Shown in pieces: positions 21,385-38,497 of a stretch of DNA of 64,000 nucleotides; the stretch's first letter is position 1; each line of letters begins with the position of its first letter. Under the pieces are notes generated by a model that worked only from the letters and a program-made list of their open reading frames with translations, had not been told where the DNA came from and did no database searches. The stretch comes from Actinomycetota bacterium. Lineage in GTDB: Bacteria > Actinomycetota > Acidimicrobiia > Acidimicrobiales > Ilumatobacteraceae. Made by a program: the position numbers and the translations under genes. The DNA lies in NCBI GenBank assembly GCA_016870215.1, contig VGCD01000004.1, positions 1-64,000 of the forward strand, written 5' to 3'.

Positions 21385-21405
21385 GAGAGCATGGAGGTCA
21401 TCGTG

Positions 21406-22851
21406 ATGGAACGACGTGCTCACATCTCATGTTCAGTTGGTGAACTGATAGCTCGATCTGCGCTCGGAGAGGTGCGCATAGTTGGTCGACCCGATGTGGT
21501 GGTGACGGGGGTGTGCTTTGACTCGCGCAATGTTGCGGCGGGAGACCTCTTTTGCTGCGTGCCCGGTTCAGGAGCCGACGGCCATGATTTTGCAATCGAC
21601 GCAGTTGCACATGGTGCGACAGCTTTACTCGTGCAGCGGGAGATCCATGGTGTCGATGAATCTGTGTCACAGATTGTCGTCCCAAATGTGCGTTTGGCGA
21701 TGGGACCGGTGAGCTCAGAGTTCTACGGAAGACCGAGCACTCGCTTGTGTGTGGTCGGAGTGACTGGCACAAATGGAAAGACCACGACGACGGCAATGCT
21801 CGCCTCCATTTTTTCAACTGCTGGTCATCGCACGAACGTTCTTGGCACGCTGACCGGATCGCGGACCACGCCTGAAGCACCGGATTTGCAGCAGTTCTTC
21901 GCCAATTCGCTCGCCGACGATGTGGCATACGTCGCGATGGAAGTGTCTTCTCATGCGCTCGACCAGCACCGCGTCGACGGCACACGCTTCGGTGCGGTGG
22001 TGTTCACCAACCTCGGGCGAGACCACCTTGACTACCACGAGTCCATGGAGCGCTATTTCGCCGCTAAAGCTCGACTCTTCATCGGTGACTTCGCCGACAA
22101 AGCAGTAGTCAATGCCGATGATGTGCACGGACGCCTGCTCATCGACTCTCGTGCCGGTGAAACGTCTTCGTACTCGCGTCAAGACATCGACAATGTTCGA
22201 GTGTCGGCTGAGTCGCTGTCATTCTCGTGGGAAGGCATCACAATCGATGTGCCGATCGGTGGTGACTTCAACGTTGACAATGCCCTCGCAGCTTGCGTCA
22301 CCGCGAGAGAGCTGGGCTTCTCGCTTGAGCAGATACGCGAGGGGCTCGCATCCTTGAAACCAGTTAGAGGACGCTTCGAGAGCATCCCCAACACACTTGA
22401 TGTGCATGTCATCGTCGACTACGCACACACCCCGGAAGCGCTCGAGCGCCTGCTCACCGCAGTGACAACCAAACAAGGCAAGCGACTCATCGTGGTCTTC
22501 GGCTGTGGTGGCGATCGCGACGCTGGAAAGCGCCCGGTGATGGGGGCCATTGCAACTGCCCATGCTGATGTCGTCGTGGTCACGTCTGACAATCCTCGCC
22601 ACGAAGATGCCGCAACCATTGTTGATGACATCATCGGCGGCATCGACGACGTTGCGCAACGCAAGGTGACAAGAATCGTCGATCGCAGATCAGCCATCGA
22701 GCACGCCATCACGATCGCTGAACCAGGAGACATGGTTCTGATTGCCGGTCGCGGACATGAGTCAAAGCAAGAAGTCGCGGGGGAGATGCGGGACTTCGAT
22801 GATGCGTTGGTTGCTCGAGACGTGCTTCAAGGATTGGTCAAGCGCGCATGA
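21406..22851 (+). CDS. murE: UDP-MurNAc-tripeptide ligase MurE (meso-DAP type)
   Basis: Adds the third stem-peptide residue to UDP-MurNAc-L-Ala-D-Glu, 481 residues. The ATP loop GTNGKTTT, the YFAAKARLF lysine (carbamylated in the family), SSHALDQHRV, and the specificity motif DNPR in SDNPRHEDA are visible; DNPR indicates meso-diaminopimelate rather than lysine. ATG 21406 is chosen because GGAGG at 21393-21397 lies eight bases upstream; an in-frame ATG at 21391 is part of that ribosome binding site. Its stop overlaps mraY directly, with no murF between. Confidence 0.94.
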   Translation: MERRAHISCSVGELIARSALGEVRIVGRPDVVVTGVCFDSRNVAAGDLFCCVPGSGADGHDFAIDAVAHGATALLVQREIHGVDESVSQIVVPNVRLAMGPVSSEFYGRPSTRLCVVGVTGTNGKTTTTAMLASIFSTAGHRTNVLGTLTGSRTTPEAPDLQQFFANSLADDVAYVAMEVSSHALDQHRVDGTRFGAVVFTNLGRDHLDYHESMERYFAAKARLFIGDFADKAVVNADDVHGRLLIDSRAGETSSYSRQDIDNVRVSAESLSFSWEGITIDVPIGGDFNVDNALAACVTARELGFSLEQIREGLASLKPVRGRFESIPNTLDVHVIVDYAHTPEALERLLTAVTTKQGKRLIVVFGCGGDRDAGKRPVMGAIATAHADVVVVTSDNPRHEDAATIVDDIIGGIDDVAQRKVTRIVDRRSAIEHAITIAEPGDMVLIAGRGHESKQEVAGEMRDFDDALVARDVLQGLVKRA

Positions 22852-23906
22852 TTGCCGTTCTCATCGCAGGTGTCGTGTCGATGCTGCTCTCGTTGCTTGG
22901 TTCACGTGCCCTCATGCAACTCTTTGCCCGACTCGGTGTCGGTCAGCCGATTCTCGGTAAAGAGGATCACGGTCCTGTGCATCACAGTCCGAAACAAGGC
23001 ACGCCGACAATGGGTGGAGCAGCCATCATCGTCGCTGCTTTCATTGGTTGGGTAGTGGCGCATGTGCGTCGCGGTCTTCCGTTCTCCAATCAAGCGCTCA
23101 TCATGTGGGTCGGTGTCCTGTTGCTGGCGTTGATGGGCTTTCTCGACGACTTCCTCAAGGTGCGAAAGGCGCACAATCGCGGAATCTTCTGGAAGCGCAA
23201 GGGATACATCACTTTCGGGCTCGTCGTGCTCACGATGACGTGGCTCGTGCTCGCCACGAACGTTTCTGAGACGTTGTCGTTCACCCGTTTTGACTTCCCG
23301 GGAATCGAATTACCGGCCGCACTGTGGGTGGTGTGGACCTCGCTCATGGTGTGGGCCACGACGAATGCGGTGAACGTCACCGACGGCCTTGATGGTCTTG
23401 CTGCTGGTTCGGCAACGTTCGGCTTTCTTGCGTTCACGGTGATCGCGTACTGGGCTTTCCGTAACCCGGATCTGTATCACTTGGTCAACCCACTTGACCT
23501 TGCGGTGTTCTCCATCGCCTTCGCTGGTGCTTGCGGTGGATTCCTCTGGTGGAATGCAGCCCCTGCTCGCATCTTCATGGGTGATGTCGGAGCTCTCGGT
23601 CTCGGAGCTGCACTTGGGTTGCTCGCGGTCACAACGAACACGCACCTGTTGCTCGTGCTCATTTGTGGCTTGAATGTCATGGAAGCTGGTTCGGTTGCGA
23701 TTCAGATGACCATCTTCAAAGCGTCAGGACGCACGCGACGGTTCTTCCGCATGACGCCGATGCATCACCATTTCGAACTTCTTGGTTGGCCAGAGACCAC
23801 CGTGATCATTCGTTTCTGGATCATCTCCGGAATTTGTGTGGCTGCAGCTGTCGGATTGTTCATTGCAGATTTCACCAACATGAGTGCGCTGGAAGTTGGT
23901 CGATGA
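22848..23906 (+). CDS. mraY: Phospho-MurNAc-pentapeptide translocase MraY
   Basis: Integral membrane enzyme of 352 residues that makes lipid I on undecaprenyl phosphate. About ten hydrophobic helices are visible. Catalytic motifs are DDFLKVR, NAVNVTDGLDGLA and MGDVGALGLG, and the conserved PMHHHFELLGW loop is intact. The ATG overlaps the murE stop (ATGA), and its stop overlaps murD in the same way. Confidence 0.95.
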   Translation: MIAVLIAGVVSMLLSLLGSRALMQLFARLGVGQPILGKEDHGPVHHSPKQGTPTMGGAAIIVAAFIGWVVAHVRRGLPFSNQALIMWVGVLLLALMGFLDDFLKVRKAHNRGIFWKRKGYITFGLVVLTMTWLVLATNVSETLSFTRFDFPGIELPAALWVVWTSLMVWATTNAVNVTDGLDGLAAGSATFGFLAFTVIAYWAFRNPDLYHLVNPLDLAVFSIAFAGACGGFLWWNAAPARIFMGDVGALGLGAALGLLAVTTNTHLLLVLICGLNVMEAGSVAIQMTIFKASGRTRRFFRMTPMHHHFELLGWPETTVIIRFWIISGICVAAAVGLFIADFTNMSALEVGR

Positions 23907-25273
23907 AAACGGTGACCGTGTATGGGCTTGGTGTCGCTGGTGTGGCTACCGCCAAGGCTTTTGCTGAGCGTGGAGTTGGAGTGCGGCTCGGGGACGACAA
24001 CATCACAGACGACATGTTGGCGTTGGCAGATGCCATCGACTCGCCACTGAACTCAGCAGATGATGCCCGCGGTATCGAGTCTGTGCTTCGAGGCTCTGAC
24101 GTACTGGTGCCCGCACCTGGCATTGCTCCGACTCATCCGGTGATTGTCGAGGCGCATCGACGCGGAATCATCGTTCGTAGCGAGATTGACATCGCATACG
24201 AGTGGGAGCAGGCCCGTCCACATGGTCCCCGACCAATCGTGGCGGTCACGGGAACCGATGGCAAGACGACTACAACGATGTTGGTGGCTGCACTCATCAG
24301 AGCGGCAGGGAAGAATTGCGCCGAAGTCGGCAACACCGATGTGCCGTTCATTGCGGCAGTCAATGACGACGTTGATGCATTTGTGGTCGAGTGTTCAAGT
24401 TTTCGGCTCGCCTTTACACAGAGTTTTCGTGCAGATGCATCGATTTGGTTGAACATTGCACCTGACCATCTCGATTGGCACGGATCATTCGAGGCTTACA
24501 CGGCGACGAAGGCTCGTCTCTGGAGTCACGACCGAGCAAGTGATGTTGCAGTCGTGCCATGCGGTGACACGCTCATCGAGGGCTACGCACGGTCGCGCGA
24601 TCACCATGTTCGTACGTTCGGATTGAATGACGGCGACTATCGAGTGGAAGCGGGAAGTCTTGTCGGCCCCGAAGGTCCAATTGCTTCTGTTGCATCAATG
24701 TGGCGCACAATGCCACACGACATAACAAATTCACTTGCAGCATCCGCAGCAGTGATGGAGTGCGGTTTGGTATCTGCCAGTCACGTCGAAGGTGCCTTGG
24801 CCACCTTTCAGCCTGCGTCTCATCGCATTGACCATGTTGGCGACTTTGCCGGTTCTGGTTGGTTTGATGACTCGAAAGCGACAAGTCCGCATGCGGCTCT
24901 CACCGCAATTCGTGCTTTCAATCGCGTTGTACTCATCGCTGGCGGAAAAAACAAAGACCTTGACCTCTCGCAGCTTGCGAGCGAACCGCATCGCATGCAC
25001 GGTGTCGTGGCCATTGGTAGCGCGCAACAAGACATCGTCGATGCGTTCACCGGCGTGTGCACCGTTCTGCGTGCGGACTCGATGGAAGAAGCGGTTGCTG
25101 CAGCAGCTGGATTGGCCGTCCCAGGAGTCGCTGTACTTCTTTCGCCTGGCTGCACGAGCTACGACTGGTATGGGAACTACAAGCAACGCGGTGATGACTT
25201 CGTGGCCCGCGTGAACAAGCACTTCGCAAATTCGAACGACCAAGTTATGACCACTCGTGGAGGGATCCAATGA
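23903..25273 (+). CDS. murD: UDP-MurNAc-L-Ala:D-Glu ligase MurD
   Basis: Adds D-glutamate to UDP-MurNAc-L-alanine, 456 residues. It has the N-terminal Rossmann substrate domain (VYGLGVAGVATAKAF), the ATP loop GTDGKTTT, NIAPDHLDWHGSFEAYTATKARL with the carbamylated-lysine position, and the C-terminal DDSKATSPHAAL, AGGKNKDLD and LLSPGCTSYDWYGNYKQRGDDF segments. ATG 23903 overlaps the mraY stop; the frame runs further upstream only as a shadow of mraY. The stop overlaps ftsW. Confidence 0.94.
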   Translation: MKTVTVYGLGVAGVATAKAFAERGVGVRLGDDNITDDMLALADAIDSPLNSADDARGIESVLRGSDVLVPAPGIAPTHPVIVEAHRRGIIVRSEIDIAYEWEQARPHGPRPIVAVTGTDGKTTTTMLVAALIRAAGKNCAEVGNTDVPFIAAVNDDVDAFVVECSSFRLAFTQSFRADASIWLNIAPDHLDWHGSFEAYTATKARLWSHDRASDVAVVPCGDTLIEGYARSRDHHVRTFGLNDGDYRVEAGSLVGPEGPIASVASMWRTMPHDITNSLAASAAVMECGLVSASHVEGALATFQPASHRIDHVGDFAGSGWFDDSKATSPHAALTAIRAFNRVVLIAGGKNKDLDLSQLASEPHRMHGVVAIGSAQQDIVDAFTGVCTVLRADSMEEAVAAAAGLAVPGVAVLLSPGCTSYDWYGNYKQRGDDFVARVNKHFANSNDQVMTTRGGIQ

Positions 25274-26463
25274 CGAGCACCCATCTACCTGCCCCGGCAC
25301 TCAGCATCGCAGAGCGCAGACTCCGGACATTGCAGCGCACAGGTCTGGCGCAAAAGCGAAAGATCGCAGAGAAGCCTCCGACGTTTGTGTTCTACGGAAT
25401 CCTCGTGGTCGTCACGATGCTGACATTGCTCGGACTTGTGATGGTGTTCTCATCGTCATCAGTGACGCTGGTGAAAGACGGAAGTTCAGCGTGGTACTTC
25501 TTCCAGAAGCAACTCATGTGGGCCTTCTTTGGGCTGGTAACCGGCGTCGGCATGTATCGCATGCCGTATTACATCTGGCGTGGACTGGTGAATATCTCAC
25601 TTGCCGTCGCCTTCGGTTTGAACCTCTTGGTGTTCGTGCCGTTCTTTGGCAAGGAAGTCAACGGTGCTCGCGCATGGGTCGGCTGGGGTTTCATCCGATT
25701 CCAGCCGTCAGAGTTCCTAAAACTCGCAATCGTGTTGTACTGCGCTGACTTGCTAGCAAAACGACACCGTCGAGTCGAATTCGCAAAAGACACCTTGATT
25801 CCTGTAGCGGTCATCATCGGCGGCGCATCTCTCATGTGCCTGGCACAGAAAGACATCGGTTCGGCCACCATCTTCGGCGGCATTCTCGTTCTCATGTGTT
25901 TCATCGCCGGACTTCCGAAGCGCCATCTGGCGTACGTGTGCGGAGTCGTTGCGGCGGGCGCGTTGTTTGTCATCGCCACCAGCACCACGGCGCGCGCTCG
26001 TTTCACATCGTTTCTTGACCTCGAAGGAACCAAGGGATACCGCGGATACCAGGTGTATCAGTCGCTTCTCAGCATCGCCAATGGTGGACCGACAGGTGTT
26101 GGCATCGGCTCAGGTACTGGCAAGTGGGGATACGTACCGCTGTCGCACAGTGACTTCATCTTCGCGATCATCGCTGAAGAGTTGGGACTAGTTGGAACAG
26201 TCCTCGTGCTCGGCGGTTTCATCGCTCTCGTGTATCTCGGTGTTCAGACAGCACTCGGCGCTCGAGACATGTACGGCGCATTGCTTGCAGGTGGCGTGAC
26301 AGCATGGTTCGGTGTTCAAGCAATCGTGAACATTGGCGGCGTGACCGGTTCGCTCCCGATGACAGGCCTCACTTTGCCCTTCATTTCTTATGGCGGATCC
26401 TCACTCATGGTGTCGATGGCGGCAGCTGGCCTGCTGTTGAACGTCGCTCGCAACATGAAGTAG
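25270..26463 (+). CDS. ftsW: SEDS-family septal glycosyltransferase FtsW
   Basis: Polymerises glycan from lipid II at the septum together with FtsI, 397 residues. The first 40 residues are cytoplasmic, followed by about ten membrane segments. Family landmarks are RFQPSEFLKLA, LAQKDIGSATI, SHSDFIFAIIAEELG and the C-terminal LPMTGLTLPFISYGGSS. It overlaps murD by four bases. A 46-bp gap separates it from the Mur fusion. Confidence 0.94.
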   Translation: MTSTHLPAPALSIAERRLRTLQRTGLAQKRKIAEKPPTFVFYGILVVVTMLTLLGLVMVFSSSSVTLVKDGSSAWYFFQKQLMWAFFGLVTGVGMYRMPYYIWRGLVNISLAVAFGLNLLVFVPFFGKEVNGARAWVGWGFIRFQPSEFLKLAIVLYCADLLAKRHRRVEFAKDTLIPVAVIIGGASLMCLAQKDIGSATIFGGILVLMCFIAGLPKRHLAYVCGVVAAGALFVIATSTTARARFTSFLDLEGTKGYRGYQVYQSLLSIANGGPTGVGIGSGTGKWGYVPLSHSDFIFAIIAEELGLVGTVLVLGGFIALVYLGVQTALGARDMYGALLAGGVTAWFGVQAIVNIGGVTGSLPMTGLTLPFISYGGSSLMVSMAAAGLLLNVARNMK

Positions 26464-26509
26464 GCGGGGAGAGCCATCTCGCTGACATGCATCCACTAAA
26501 CAAGTGGTC

Positions 26510-29500
26510 ATGAAGTCGACCGGCGAACGAGCTTCTCGGTTGCACACCGATGCGCATGCCGACGTGTATGCAGTCGTCACAGGTGGTGGCACGAGCGGCC
26601 ATGTGTTGCCTGCCATCGCTGTTCTGGAAGCTCTCGAGGATTCCGGCATGAGTGTCGAACGACTCCGCTTCGTCGGCTGTCGGCGTGGAATTGATGCCCG
26701 ACTTCTGGGTGACACCCCATACGAAGCAGTCTTTTTGCCGGTGTCCGGACTGCGCCGCAGCATGTCTCTGGGAGCGATTCGTGACAATCTCGCTTTGGTC
26801 TGGCGTCTCTGGAACTCCACTCGTCTGGCTCGTCGACTGCTGCGCAGGTGGCAACCACAAGTCGTGGTGTCCGTGGGTGGGTATGCGAGTGAACCGATGG
26901 CAAGAGCGGCAGTGTCGCAAGGAGTGCCATTGGTGTGTGTCAGTTACGACCGCACACCTGGTCTCGCAACCAGACGGCAGGCCCGACATGCGGTCGGTAG
27001 CGCCGTGGCATTCCCAGACTCAGAGCTACCCCGTGTGCATCACACGGGGGCTCCTGTGCGTCGGCATGTGCGGACAATCGATGTTGCTTCGCGCCGCGAA
27101 GAGGCTCGCACGATCCTCGGTGTTCCAGCAGACATCATGCTCGTCACTGTCATGGGAGGATCTCTCGGTTCTGCGGCATTGAACTTCGCATGTCGAGCAT
27201 TCGTCGAGAGATGTCGTGAACAAGCACACACAATCGGTGGGCGACCGATTGGAATCTTGCACCTGTGCGGAGATCGCTTTGTCGAAAATGAGGGTGAGGA
27301 AACTGTGCAAGCCGGGGTGTGGTATCGCACTATTGGCTACGAACCACGAATTGCCGAGGTCTATGCGGCAAGTGACCTGTTGGTGGCGCGCGCCGGTGCA
27401 AGCACCGTTGCTGAGATTGCTGCAGTCGGCGTTCCTTCAGTGCTCGTGCCGTGGCCGGCCGCAGCAGAAGATCATCAGCGTCTGAACGCCCGCTGGCTTG
27501 CTGATTCATCGGCTGCGGAATTGATCGAAGAAGAGCAGTTGACAACCGATGTCCTCTTTAATCGCATCACGCACTTGCTTGGTGACGACCAAGCTCGACA
27601 AGCGATGTCGGAACGGGCACGCATGTTGGGAGAGGCGTCTCGTAGTGACGGGCTGGTGCAATTCATTAACGATGTCGCCCAACACCGAACATCGCTGGAG
27701 CCCGCAGAAGATGGCGACGCTCTTGACAAGCAGCCCGTTCAACGCATCCACGTGGTCGGCGTCGGCGGACCTGGCATGAGTGCGGTCGCCACTGTGCTCG
27801 CAGAGATGGGTCATCGTGTGAGCGGATCGGACCTACGACGGTCTCACACCATGGACCAGCTCGAGGCCGCGGGCGTGCGGGTTCATATTGGTCACAGCGA
27901 ATCGCACGTCGAAGATGTCGACACGGTCGTGTACTCGACTGCAATTCCGCAAGACAACATCGAACTTGTCAGCGCACGACGAGCGGGCATCGAGGTGATT
28001 CATCGCGGAGACATGCTCGGTCGAATTTGTGCCAAGGCCCGCAGTGTGGGTGTGGCTGGCACTCACGGCAAGACCACGACTTCGGCACTTCTCTTGCGCA
28101 TTCTTGATGACGCAGGTCGAGCCCCTTCCTATGTGATTGGAGCCGAAGTTGGCGACACGGGTCGTGGTGCGCAGTGGACGGGGGGAGACATTCTCATCGT
28201 CGAGGCAGATGAGAGCGATGGAACTCACGACAAACTTCCACTTTCGGGGGTCATTCTCACGAACATCGACATCGATCATCTCGATCACTTCGGATCTCTT
28301 GAAGGCCTCATCGATTCCTTCGATCGGTTCTTGCAGCGAGTCAAAGGACCGGTCGTGGTGTGCATAGATGATGTGAATATTCGTCAACTCTCGGCAATCA
28401 AGGCCGTTGATCGTGGGGTCATTACGTACGGCACGAACGACAGTGCGGACTTCAGGGTGTCTGATATCTCCGTCACTTACGCTGGTACGTCATTCAGATT
28501 GACGACTGCTGCGACAACTCTCGACGTGAATATTCCTTTGTTCGGTGAACACAACGCACTCAATGCCGCCGGTGCAATTGCACTGGCAACATCCGTCGGC
28601 GTGTCGATGAGCGATGCCGCAGCATCTCTCGCCAGTTTTGGTGGTGTAGATCGACGATTCGTGGAATGCGGGTCGATGTCGGGGGTCACCTTCGTCGATG
28701 ATTACGCCCATGTCCCCACTGAGATTCACGCAGTGCTGAAGGCCGCAGCACAGCGTTATACCAATCGAGGACGCCTTGTCGCAGTGTTCCAGCCGAACCG
28801 CTATCACCGTATTGCCGCAATGGCGAAAGAATTTGGAACATGTTTTTCTGCAGCTGATCTGGTGATCATCACGGACATCTACGCATCTGGCACCACACCA
28901 ATTCCTGGGGTGACGGGTCAGCTTGTCGCCGAAGCAGTCAGCCCGCATCACGCTTCTGGCAATGTGTTGTACGTAGCTGATCGACGAGAGTTGCCGCGTG
29001 CGGTCGCAGAGCAGCTGCGTTCCGGTGATGTCGTGGTGAGTATGGGTTGTGGTGACATCGAGTCCTTCCCCCGTGAGGCAATCATCGAACTTGGTGTGAG
29101 TGCAGTGAAGAAGTGGTGCGACGCACGATCAATCAGCGCCGAGTTCAATGGTCAAGTTGGAAAACTCACGACCTATCGAGTCGGTGGAAGAGCTCGCCTT
29201 GTGGTGACACCCCGAAATATGGAGGAAGTGCGTGAATTCGCTGGCCAGGTGCCGCCGTCAGTTCCGTTTTACGCCTTGGGAAATGGAAGTAACACATTGG
29301 TGAGCGACCGGGGATTTGACGGAATAGTTCTCCGCTTACCCGACACAACGGGCGTGATGGCAGGCGACGCAATCGATTACCAAGTGGATGGTGGCTCGTG
29401 CGTCGCGACGGTCGACAGTGCAATGAAACTGCCTGTGTTTGCTCGGCGCACCGTTGCGGACGGCTGGTGTGGTGCGGAATGGATGGTTGGTGTCCCCGGA

Positions 29501-30124
29501 ACGATGGGCGGCGCTGTTCGCATGAATGCAGGTGGACATGGATCTGACATGGCGTCGTCTGTCGTTGAGATTGAAATCGTGGATGTCACCACTGGTCACA
29601 GGTCCTGGGTGCCGGCGTCCGACATTGGGTTTCGTTTTCGACACTCTGCACTCGACGATGCGCATGTCGTGAGCCGAGTGCGGGTGTCGTTGCAATCGGC
29701 ATCTGCGACTGAACACGACTGCGAAAGTGCGCTGTCGGAGATTGTTGCCTGGCGACGTGAGCATCAGCCTGGTGGACAGAACGCTGGTTCGGTGTTCGTC
29801 AACCCTTCCGAGGGTGATGGTTCGGCGGGGGCACTCATCGATTCGCTCGGTTTACGTGGCTGGCGTTGTGGCACCGCCCACGTTTCTGAACGGCATGCAA
29901 ACTTCGTGCAGTCAGATCAAGGTGGGTCAGCAGATGATGTGCTCGCCGTGATGCGACATGTTCAGCAGCAGGTGAGTGCGTCGACTGGAATTCTGTTGCG
30001 GAGCGAAATTCGACTCTTGGGCTTCGATGAAGATGTCGTTGCAGAGTTCTCAAGTCACAGGTCGTATTCGGTTGATGACGGTGCAGACGACGAAGCACGG
30101 GCAAGACTGTTGCGACATTTATGA
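26510..30124 (+). CDS. murGCB: MurG-MurC-MurB trifunctional fusion protein
   Basis: One uninterrupted reading frame of 1204 codons carries three peptidoglycan-precursor enzymes. MurG (about 18-390) has GGGTSGH at 25-31, GGSLGS at 216-221 and RAGASTVAE near 295. MurC (about 410-866) has VVGVGGPGMS, GTHGK521-TTT and DIDHLDHF. MurB (about 868-1204) has G924-NGSN, GVPGTMGGAVRMNAGG near 994, the catalytic Ser1094 in NAGSVFVNP and Glu1166 in SEIRLLGF. A short acidic linker joins MurG and MurC, while MurC and MurB abut. In MurG the usual HEQN/HEAN acceptor motif is replaced by SYDRTPG. GTG 26504 is an alternative start. ftsQ overlaps the stop. Confidence 0.93.
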   Translation: MKSTGERASRLHTDAHADVYAVVTGGGTSGHVLPAIAVLEALEDSGMSVERLRFVGCRRGIDARLLGDTPYEAVFLPVSGLRRSMSLGAIRDNLALVWRLWNSTRLARRLLRRWQPQVVVSVGGYASEPMARAAVSQGVPLVCVSYDRTPGLATRRQARHAVGSAVAFPDSELPRVHHTGAPVRRHVRTIDVASRREEARTILGVPADIMLVTVMGGSLGSAALNFACRAFVERCREQAHTIGGRPIGILHLCGDRFVENEGEETVQAGVWYRTIGYEPRIAEVYAASDLLVARAGASTVAEIAAVGVPSVLVPWPAAAEDHQRLNARWLADSSAAELIEEEQLTTDVLFNRITHLLGDDQARQAMSERARMLGEASRSDGLVQFINDVAQHRTSLEPAEDGDALDKQPVQRIHVVGVGGPGMSAVATVLAEMGHRVSGSDLRRSHTMDQLEAAGVRVHIGHSESHVEDVDTVVYSTAIPQDNIELVSARRAGIEVIHRGDMLGRICAKARSVGVAGTHGKTTTSALLLRILDDAGRAPSYVIGAEVGDTGRGAQWTGGDILIVEADESDGTHDKLPLSGVILTNIDIDHLDHFGSLEGLIDSFDRFLQRVKGPVVVCIDDVNIRQLSAIKAVDRGVITYGTNDSADFRVSDISVTYAGTSFRLTTAATTLDVNIPLFGEHNALNAAGAIALATSVGVSMSDAAASLASFGGVDRRFVECGSMSGVTFVDDYAHVPTEIHAVLKAAAQRYTNRGRLVAVFQPNRYHRIAAMAKEFGTCFSAADLVIITDIYASGTTPIPGVTGQLVAEAVSPHHASGNVLYVADRRELPRAVAEQLRSGDVVVSMGCGDIESFPREAIIELGVSAVKKWCDARSISAEFNGQVGKLTTYRVGGRARLVVTPRNMEEVREFAGQVPPSVPFYALGNGSNTLVSDRGFDGIVLRLPDTTGVMAGDAIDYQVDGGSCVATVDSAMKLPVFARRTVADGWCGAEWMVGVPGTMGGAVRMNAGGHGSDMASSVVEIEIVDVTTGHRSWVPASDIGFRFRHSALDDAHVVSRVRVSLQSASATEHDCESALSEIVAWRREHQPGGQNAGSVFVNPSEGDGSAGALIDSLGLRGWRCGTAHVSERHANFVQSDQGGSADDVLAVMRHVQQQVSASTGILLRSEIRLLGFDEDVVAEFSSHRSYSVDDGADDEARARLLRHL

Positions 30125-31191
30125 GTCGCGACGAGACCCCCATCGAGCCGCCAATCGATGAGACCGCTGTCACCGAGGTGCCGGCTGACGTTCTCGGTGA
30201 ATTGTCGAGCCTGCTCGGAGTCGACCAGGTCCCACCAGGGCCGTCCGACAGCGGAAGTGACGGTGAAGGAACGACGCTGGAGGAGTCGCCGCAAGAGACG
30301 AGCAAGACGGTTCACGTCACATCCGCAGAGATGGGTGCATCGTCTGATGAATCAGTGGTGATCATTGATGATGAGTATCACGGTTCCACAGTGCTGGTGG
30401 ATGCCGATCAAGTCGGCCGCATCGTCATCGTTGATGACGATCAACCAGACCCACGCTTCGAAGAACGACGCGAGAAGATTCGCCGTCGCGAGCAACGTCG
30501 TCAAGTTCGGTGGGTATATGCCGCCGGCATCGCCATCGGGGCATTCGTCCTCGTTGTAGTGGTGCTCGCCTCGCCGTTGTTCTCGGTGCGAGACATCACT
30601 GTTGATGGTCGTGTCTATGTCGACAGCGACACCGTGAAGAAGGCGACAGATGCACTGAAAGGCGTGTCGGTGTTTTCTGCTGATGTCGACCGGGTCGAGG
30701 GAATTCTGCGCGAGGACCCATGGGTGGAGGACGTGAGAGTCGAAACTCACTTTCCTTCATCCGCCATCATCGAAATTGACGAACGCACGCCTGTGGTGTG
30801 GTTCGTCGGTTCTGACAACAAAGCTCGTGTCATCGACGCCGACGGGGTGGTCATCACGGTGCTCGACGGGTGGCCTACCGGGTACCTGCAAATCGTAGGA
30901 ACAGGTCCGAATGTCGAACCGGGCGTGAAGGCCGATCAGGTCTATCGAGCCATCGCTCAGCTGGTGGCAGCATTGCCTGCAGAGATCAAGCTCAAAGTGC
31001 GTGATGTCGGCATCACCGGTACGGGGGAGATCACCTTGACTTTGAAGAGCGGAACGCTCATCCGATTCGGCCAGCCCACCGATTTGCAGGACAAGTTGGT
31101 GGCTGTCGTGGTGTTGTTACGACGACAAGACCCGGCGAATCTGGCCGCAATCGACGTGTCTACGGGTGACGTCACAGTCCAATCTCGGTAG
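30121..31191 (+). CDS. ftsQ: Cell division protein FtsQ
   Basis: A 356-residue bitopic divisome protein. An acidic cytoplasmic region of about 118 residues, with DDE/DDD clusters (VIIDDEYHGS, VIVDDDQPD), precedes a basic stretch (RREKIRRREQRRQVR) and one membrane helix (about 138-156). Outside lies the POTRA domain (LFSVRDITVDGRVYVDSDTV) and the FtsQ beta domain (EDPWVEDVRVETHFPSSAIIEIDERTPV). The acidic tail is long for the family. The start overlaps the Mur fusion stop (ATGA). Confidence 0.9.
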   Translation: MSRDETPIEPPIDETAVTEVPADVLGELSSLLGVDQVPPGPSDSGSDGEGTTLEESPQETSKTVHVTSAEMGASSDESVVIIDDEYHGSTVLVDADQVGRIVIVDDDQPDPRFEERREKIRRREQRRQVRWVYAAGIAIGAFVLVVVVLASPLFSVRDITVDGRVYVDSDTVKKATDALKGVSVFSADVDRVEGILREDPWVEDVRVETHFPSSAIIEIDERTPVVWFVGSDNKARVIDADGVVITVLDGWPTGYLQIVGTGPNVEPGVKADQVYRAIAQLVAALPAEIKLKVRDVGITGTGEITLTLKSGTLIRFGQPTDLQDKLVAVVVLLRRQDPANLAAIDVSTGDVTVQSR

Positions 31192-37270: not shown

Positions 37271-38497
37271 ATGGCAGCCAAGAAGAAGTCCACCTCTACA
37301 GCGAAGAAGTCGGCCAAGAAGCCCGTCAAGAAGTCAGCCAAGCGGCCGGCCAAGAAGCAAGTGAAAAAGGCTTCAAAGTCAACCGCAAAGAAGCCGGCAA
37401 AGAAGAATGCTGCAGCCGTCAAAAAGGCGGCGGCTGTGAAGAAGGTCGCAGCAAAGAAGGTCGCAGCAAAGAAGGTCGCAGCAAAGAAGGTCGCAGCAAA
37501 GAAGGTCGCAGCAAAGAAGGTCGCAGCAAAGAAGGTCGCAGCAAAGAAGAAGGCTGATCTCGCCAAGAAAGTGGCTGCTCAAAAGGCCGCAGCGAAGAAG
37601 AAAGCTGAACTAGCGAAGAAAGTTGCGGCCAAGAAGAAGGCTGACGCACTAAAGAAAGCCGAGCTGGCCAAGCGCGCTGCTGCAAAGAAAGCTGAAGCAA
37701 AAAAGAAGGCGGACATTGCTCGCGAAAAGGCCCGACTCAAGGCGGAAGCTGATCGTCAACGCAAGCAGGCGGCTCGAGAGAAAGAGGCTCAGGCCAAAGC
37801 GAAGGAACGTGAACGTCAGGCGGCCGAGAAGGCGCGTCTCAAGGCGCGGGCTGAAGCAGAAAAAGCTCGCCTGAAAGAAAAGGCCGAACGCGACAAGCAA
37901 CGCGCAGCCGAAGCAGCGGAACGTGCTGCTACGAAGGCAGCTGCTGAAGCGGAGAAGGCTCGGATTCGCGAAGAAGCTGCTGCAGCCAAAGCCGCGGCTA
38001 AGGCTGCTGCTGAAGCAGAGAAAGCTCGACTGAAGGCAGAAGCTGAAGCAAAGAAGAGGGCTGAAGCAAAGAAGTTCATCATCGTGAAGGGACCGTCTGA
38101 GGACGGGATCACCTCAACGAAGGAATTCGATTTGAAGTTCCTCTTCGCACAGCGTGATGCGCTTCGCATCGAACGTGCGAAGTTGCTAGGTCAGGCCGAT
38201 CGACTTGAAGACGAAGCAAATGCCCTTATTGCCGACGCCGAGATGGGCGATGTGCAATTCGACGATGAAGGCGGCGAAGGCGACACGATGGTGGTCGAGC
38301 GCGAGCGAGACCAGGTGTTGTCTGCGCAAGCACGTCAAACGGTGTCAGAGATTGATGCTGCTATCGAGCGCATGGGTCGTGGTGAATACGGGTACTCGGT
38401 CGTGTCCGGATTCCCCATTCCGAAAGAGCGATTGAAGGCCCTACCATGGGCGACGGAGTTGGTCACCGAGCGCGCGGGTGGACTTGGTCGCCGATAG
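37271..38497 (+). CDS. Lysine/alanine-rich protein with DksA/TraR-like C-terminal domain
   Basis: A 408-residue chimera. Residues 1-130 are a histone-H1-like Lys/Ala tail containing seven perfect copies of AAKKV coded by a 15-bp tandem repeat. Residues 130-265 form a long charged coiled coil (EKARLKAEADR, AEAEKARLKAEAE). The C-terminal 130 residues resemble DksA/TraR proteins (LSAQARQTVSEIDAAIERMGRGEYGYSVVSGFPIPKERLKALPWATELV), but the four zinc cysteines of the finger are replaced and none remains. Related proteins sit beside ileS and lspA in streptomycetes. GGGAGA lies six bases before ATG. DNA or RNA-polymerase binding is likely, not proven. Confidence 0.8.
   Translation: MAAKKKSTSTAKKSAKKPVKKSAKRPAKKQVKKASKSTAKKPAKKNAAAVKKAAAVKKVAAKKVAAKKVAAKKVAAKKVAAKKVAAKKVAAKKKADLAKKVAAQKAAAKKKAELAKKVAAKKKADALKKAELAKRAAAKKAEAKKKADIAREKARLKAEADRQRKQAAREKEAQAKAKERERQAAEKARLKARAEAEKARLKEKAERDKQRAAEAAERAATKAAAEAEKARIREEAAAAKAAAKAAAEAEKARLKAEAEAKKRAEAKKFIIVKGPSEDGITSTKEFDLKFLFAQRDALRIERAKLLGQADRLEDEANALIADAEMGDVQFDDEGGEGDTMVVERERDQVLSAQARQTVSEIDAAIERMGRGEYGYSVVSGFPIPKERLKALPWATELVTERAGGLGRR
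37441..37545 (+). repeat. Seven perfect 15-bp tandem repeats inside the Lys/Ala-rich gene
   Basis: The unit GAAGGTCGCAGCAAA recurs seven times without a mismatch and keeps the frame, coding (KVAAK)n. Perfect identity implies recent expansion or ongoing slippage; copy number may vary between strains, changing tail length in steps of five residues. Confidence 0.95.

Follow-up and report, generated by a model that had tools for sequence, protein, structure and literature searches.

Pairwise fusions of genes for peptidoglycan precursor synthesis are already known. Among actinomycetes, MurG-MurC (Cellulomonas gilvus) and ftsW-murG (Kribbella flavida) fusions have been reported (PMC4929429, Fig. 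3), and MurB-MurC, MurC-Ddl, MurE-MurF and MraY-MurG fusions have been listed (PMC6420597). The MurB/C protein of Verrucomicrobium spinosum complements mutants of murB and of murC in E. coli, and its MurB activity was not demonstrable in vitro (PMC4803751). It is a long-standing question whether the cytoplasmic Mur enzymes form a single complex scaffolded by MurG; it has mostly been addressed through weak protein-protein interactions, and there is precedent for MurG acting as a scaffold of Mur enzymes (PMC6420597, PMC4929429). We analysed a 64,000-nt stretch of DNA from a member of the Ilumatobacteraceae (Actinomycetota; contig VGCD01000004.1, positions 1 to 64,000), hereafter the window, in which murG, murC and murB form a single open frame of 1204 codons plus a stop, with no internal stop codon on reading of the ORF. 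The frame, its parts and its immediate neighbours are as follows.

25270..26463, (+) strand: ftsW, directly 5' of the fused gene (TIGR02614, 346 bits, over the cut-off)
26510..30124, (+) strand: murG-murC-murB fused gene, 1204 aa; its stop codon shares the ATGA at 30121 with the start of ftsQ
26573..27667, (+) strand: MurG domain, aa 22-386 (TIGR01133, 210.7 bits, below the cut-off of 250.25)
26939..26962, (+) strand: VSYDRTPG in place of the MurG HEQN acceptor loop, aa 144-151 (alignment to solved MurGs)
27668..27742, (+) strand: G-C linker, aa 387-411, predicted to be disordered; its length differs among relatives by whole codons
27743..29077, (+) strand: MurC domain, aa 412-856 (TIGR01082, 451 bits, above the cut-off of 335)
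29051..29125, (+) strand: C-B bridge, aa 848-872, predicted to be a single unbroken helix that carries the end of MurC over into MurB
29117..30028, (+) strand: MurB domain, aa 870-1173 (TIGR00179, 154 bits, above the cut-off of 144.5)
30121..31191, (+) strand: ftsQ, directly 3' of the fused gene (POTRA_1 and FtsQ_DivIB_C), its start overlapping the fusion stop

Like the C. gilvus MurG-MurC, which we compared by its published description, the window fusion joins neighbouring dcw genes of Actinomycetota in G-C order and unites non-consecutive steps, but the C. gilvus protein is without MurB. The Verrucomicrobiota MurB/C relatives that we read have the same C-then-B order and, in 7 of 12 (a set that includes one Kiritimatiellae locus twice), the same 39-codon spacing between the two domains, but they lack a MurG domain. 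The MurE-MurF of Bordetella pertussis (PMC6420597) and the MurC-Ddl of Chlamydia trachomatis, the latter as it is cited in PMC4803751, are likewise bifunctional proteins from adjacent genes, but each is a different pair and holds two enzymes only. Where MurG has been described as a scaffold for MurD/E/F and MurE-MurF (PMC6420597; PMC4929429) the association is non-covalent, whereas the link to MurG in the window protein is covalent. The original prediction knew of no described MurG-MurC-MurB protein, and we found no report of a triple fusion in the full text of open-licence PMC papers; the triple fusion thus appears to be undescribed, but its pairwise versions have been published (PMC4929429, PMC6420597, PMC4803751). 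The triple is thus a union of pairs described before: the window protein holds both MurG-MurC and MurB/C in one frame, three enzymes rather than two. It offers a single polypeptide for structural study of the Mur complex, and a natural MurB-MurC-MurG protein with relatives in every state (split, G-C, C-B and G-C-B) offers a direct comparative and biochemical test of the complex.

The fusion sits inside the dcw cluster next to ftsW and ftsQ, as had been proposed, and the cluster reads rsmH (a name resting on the ORF translation alone), ftsL-like, ftsI, murE, mraY, murD, ftsW, the fusion, ftsQ, ftsZ, yggS and sepF. The fused gene could also start at an in-frame GTG at 26504. A profile search of the contigs of the source genome, a draft of 2.0 Mb in 55 contigs that is 91.8% complete, identified the fused gene as its sole MurG and sole MurB_C locus. 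We also observed that murF is absent from its usual murE/mraY interval (21391-23906) and lies on another contig (C1:235862-237085), and that the source genome has two MreB genes.

Profile searches agreed with the ORF reading that the MurG, MurC and MurB domains are all complete, and each of the three parts matches its own enzyme among solved structures. The MurC domain matched MurC 6cau with a phmmer E of 3e-82 and has its P-loop, GTHGKTTT, at aa 517-524. The MurB domain has both FAD_binding_4 and MurB_C (86.7 bits), with GNGSN at aa 924-928 and the catalytic residues Ser1094 and Glu1166; against PRK13905 it scored 235.7, below the cut-off of 259. The curated TIGR01133 cut-off that the MurG domain misses is also missed by the dcw MurG in 24 of 30 genomes from other families of the order and class. 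This domain has phmmer matches to the solved MurGs 7d1i, 1f0k and 3s2u, the GT28 N and C domains, the GGGTxGH motif (GGGTSGH at aa 25-31 of the fused protein) and the GGS loop, and it is the sole murG, in a dcw location. Foldseek with the predicted model returned MurC, MurB and MurG folds among its matches. As a separate matter, two MurC segments differ in nearly the whole family: FQPHRY (28787-28810, aa 760-767) is FQPNRY/F, and DDYGHHPTE (28697-28723, aa 730-738) is DDYAHVPTE or DDYAHLPxE, while in other classes FQPH is kept and HHP mostly kept.

All main motifs had been expected in the frame. GGGTSGH, GTHGKTTT, GNGSN, Ser1094 and Glu1166 are where they had been placed, but the HEQN of MurG is replaced by VSYD at aa 144-147. 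The HEQN loop of E. coli, P. aeruginosa and A. baumannii MurG has been described as critical for lipid I (PMC8256705). Among the relatives read for this loop (L002-L075 and L086-L117), family members had VSYD, VSWD, CSYD or ISYD at the HEQN position, fused and split alike, and in other families of the class the loop is partly eroded (e.g. MEQN, VNTD, VELD). Because the VSYD-type loop is found in fused and split members and erosion extends to other families, loss of HEQN is not a consequence of the fusion, which we therefore ruled out as its cause. A second MurG as the reason for the divergent domain was ruled out as well, since the genome has only one; VSYD alters the active site of an essential enzyme that has no second copy in this genome. 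From synteny and sole-copy status, we assume that the MurG domain is active.

The distance between landmarks on either side of the C-B junction was 117 nt (39 codons) in 11/11 fused proteins measured, from two genera, compared with 121-191 nt in split relatives, some of which come close to the fused value (122 nt). In the Verrucomicrobiota MurC-MurB fusions beyond the seven with 117 nt, it was 123 or 141 nt. AlphaFold2 predicted three well-formed enzymes for residues 16-1185 of the window protein (mean pLDDT 92.3), with a pTM of 0.69 that leaves the relative placement of MurG unfixed, as does the 0.66 of a model from a second lineage (L026; pLDDT 91.3). In the window model, MurC and MurB are joined by a continuous 25-residue helix of high pLDDT (848-872; 833-857 in model numbering), and aa 396-406 within the G-C linker are disordered, with pLDDT under 50. 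The L026 model repeats both features, the C-B helix and the disordered G-C linker, and the two models share many alignment rows and hence are not wholly independent. We infer that the C-B spacing may reflect a preferred register of the helix that has been arrived at more than once.

A search among relatives, of the kind proposed with the original prediction, recovered the fusion in two further metagenome-assembled genomes (MAGs) and in another genus. The window's genus has the triple fusion in 3 of 32 genomes, the genes being split in the others with a readable locus, so that the fusion is not required. In a family sample of 121 genomes, three genomes of genus g11 (L024-L026) are also triple-fused, at about 46% identity to the window protein, and the other readable members of g11 have C-B fused and G separate. 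Genus g184 has G-C fused, with B separate, and the large-genome genera of the family have three separate genes, mostly with 4-base start-stop overlaps. Within the family, every genome found to carry a fusion is small, about 1.4-2.3 Mb. Outside the family, there was no triple fusion among the matches listed from 396 Actinomycetota genomes sampled, and no unbroken three-domain match among those listed from 289 Verrucomicrobiota genomes, where C-B fusions are common. Further unbroken MurG-MurC frames were seen in other families of the phylum, in L078 (G642) and at G102:C15:40776-43178, so the G-C pair fuses repeatedly. We also noted a murC with an apparent mid-gene frameshift (between query MurC positions 217 and 299) in L012 and L041, which are probably one genome.

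With draft genomes as the source, chiefly MAGs, stop codons could in principle have been lost through an assembly or sequencing artefact. The same unbroken fusion is, however, present in two separate MAGs, UBA2093 (L002 = G486, 73% identity) and F1-20-MAGs022 (L003 = G489, 71%), and also in another genus, and indels in the G-C linker are of whole codons only. Between the window and these two MAGs, substitution is of the coding type, with differences at 0.62-0.64 of third and 0.11-0.16 of second codon positions in the domains and at 0.56-0.79 and 0.18-0.21, respectively, across the C-B bridge. The retention of the fusion across three species, with in-frame indels and coding-type substitution, excludes assembly error for practical purposes, and we give an artefact next to no credence. 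It is also improbable that, from a continuous frame, MurC and/or MurB are made apart through internal initiation or proteolysis. GTG codons do lie close to the MurC start in the window, L003 and L024-L026, and the dcw genes of split relatives are start-stop coupled; but none of the window's GTG codons has a Shine-Dalgarno-like sequence upstream, neither the MurC nor the MurB junction shows such a start in the window protein, in keeping with the predicted lack of a ribosome binding site between the domains, and the C-B junction falls within a predicted helix. As for how the frame came to be joined, the domain order had been taken to follow gene order after loss of stop codons. The order is G-C-B and the G-C junction fits, since in several split members of the window's genus murC continues the frame of murG after a stop codon, so that this join could arise by stop loss. 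At the second junction the proposal fails: readable split members of the genus have murB out of frame with murC, mostly with start-stop overlaps, and the C-B join therefore required an indel (frameshift), stop loss being insufficient. In trees of the concatenated domains, the window clade groups with split members of its own genus and the other triple clade lies inside g11. A single clade of the six triple-fused proteins was rejected (AU p = 3e-9), as was one of all C-B fused proteins (AU p = 5e-6); for the latter group, single-domain tests rejected it with MurG (p = 0.003) but not with MurC (p = 0.086). One ancestral triple fusion that predated the divergence of the two genera and was then broken up in most descendants would account for the identical 117-nt spacing in both, and by a hand count on one topology it needs five events against four for independent gains, a small gap. 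The spacing is weakened as proof of one origin by its frequency in Verrucomicrobiota, which makes convergence possible, and the genera are not sisters in the AU-test tree, so that extra losses would be needed. We hold this single origin to be rather unlikely. Given the rejection of one clade and the roughly one event fewer for independent gains, two origins are favoured, though not proven, and the triple fusion most likely arose at least twice.

MurB is the FAD/NADPH reductase that makes UDP-MurNAc, MurC adds L-Ala to UDP-MurNAc, and MurG is the peripheral membrane enzyme that converts lipid I to lipid II. On sequence grounds, we consider it very probable that the frame encodes one trifunctional peptidoglycan-precursor enzyme made from joined adjacent dcw genes, in a cell with no other MurG or MurB, and we infer that all three domains are active. 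MurB and MurC would form a semi-rigid unit via their shared helix, leashed by the short flexible linker to membrane-bound MurG. The fusion would then impose a fixed 1:1:1 stoichiometry and bring the MurB and MurC reactions, two early cytoplasmic steps, to the membrane alongside MurG; tethering of these steps to the membrane and the divisome, as the original prediction suggested, is plausible. Direct channelling may be feasible from MurB to MurC only, because MurD, MurE, MurF and MraY act between MurC and MurG and transfer there cannot be direct. A stronger proposal is a covalent mini-metabolon, twice evolved, in which a rigid, fixed-register C-B helix would hand UDP-MurNAc between active sites and a MurG whose acceptor site has been remodelled would tie precursor entry to the membrane step; we regard it as speculative and unlikely. 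The fusion might instead be neutral, neighbours in compact genomes occasionally losing stops or shifting frame and leaving the domains as independent enzymes on a string, an account that we think quite possible while leaning somewhat against it. The patchy spread, with 3 of 32 genomes in the genus and sister genera showing G-C, C-B or no fusion, the small size of every fused family genome and the weak constraint on the G-C linker all agree with neutrality. They have to be set against a fusion that has been kept across deep divergence (71-73% identity in the window clade, and a whole G-C clade in g184) and a C-B bridge that is length-invariant, protein-constrained and predicted to be a rigid helix, with a spacing that recurs in Verrucomicrobiota.

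Elsewhere in the window, 37271-38497 encodes a 408-aa protein, flanked by ileS-like and lspA-like ORFs, that had no match in Pfam. Its first half is Lys/Ala-rich, its C-terminal part has a DksA/TraR-type likeness seen by eye only, and its gene contains a perfect 15-bp repeat in 7.4 copies (37439-37549).
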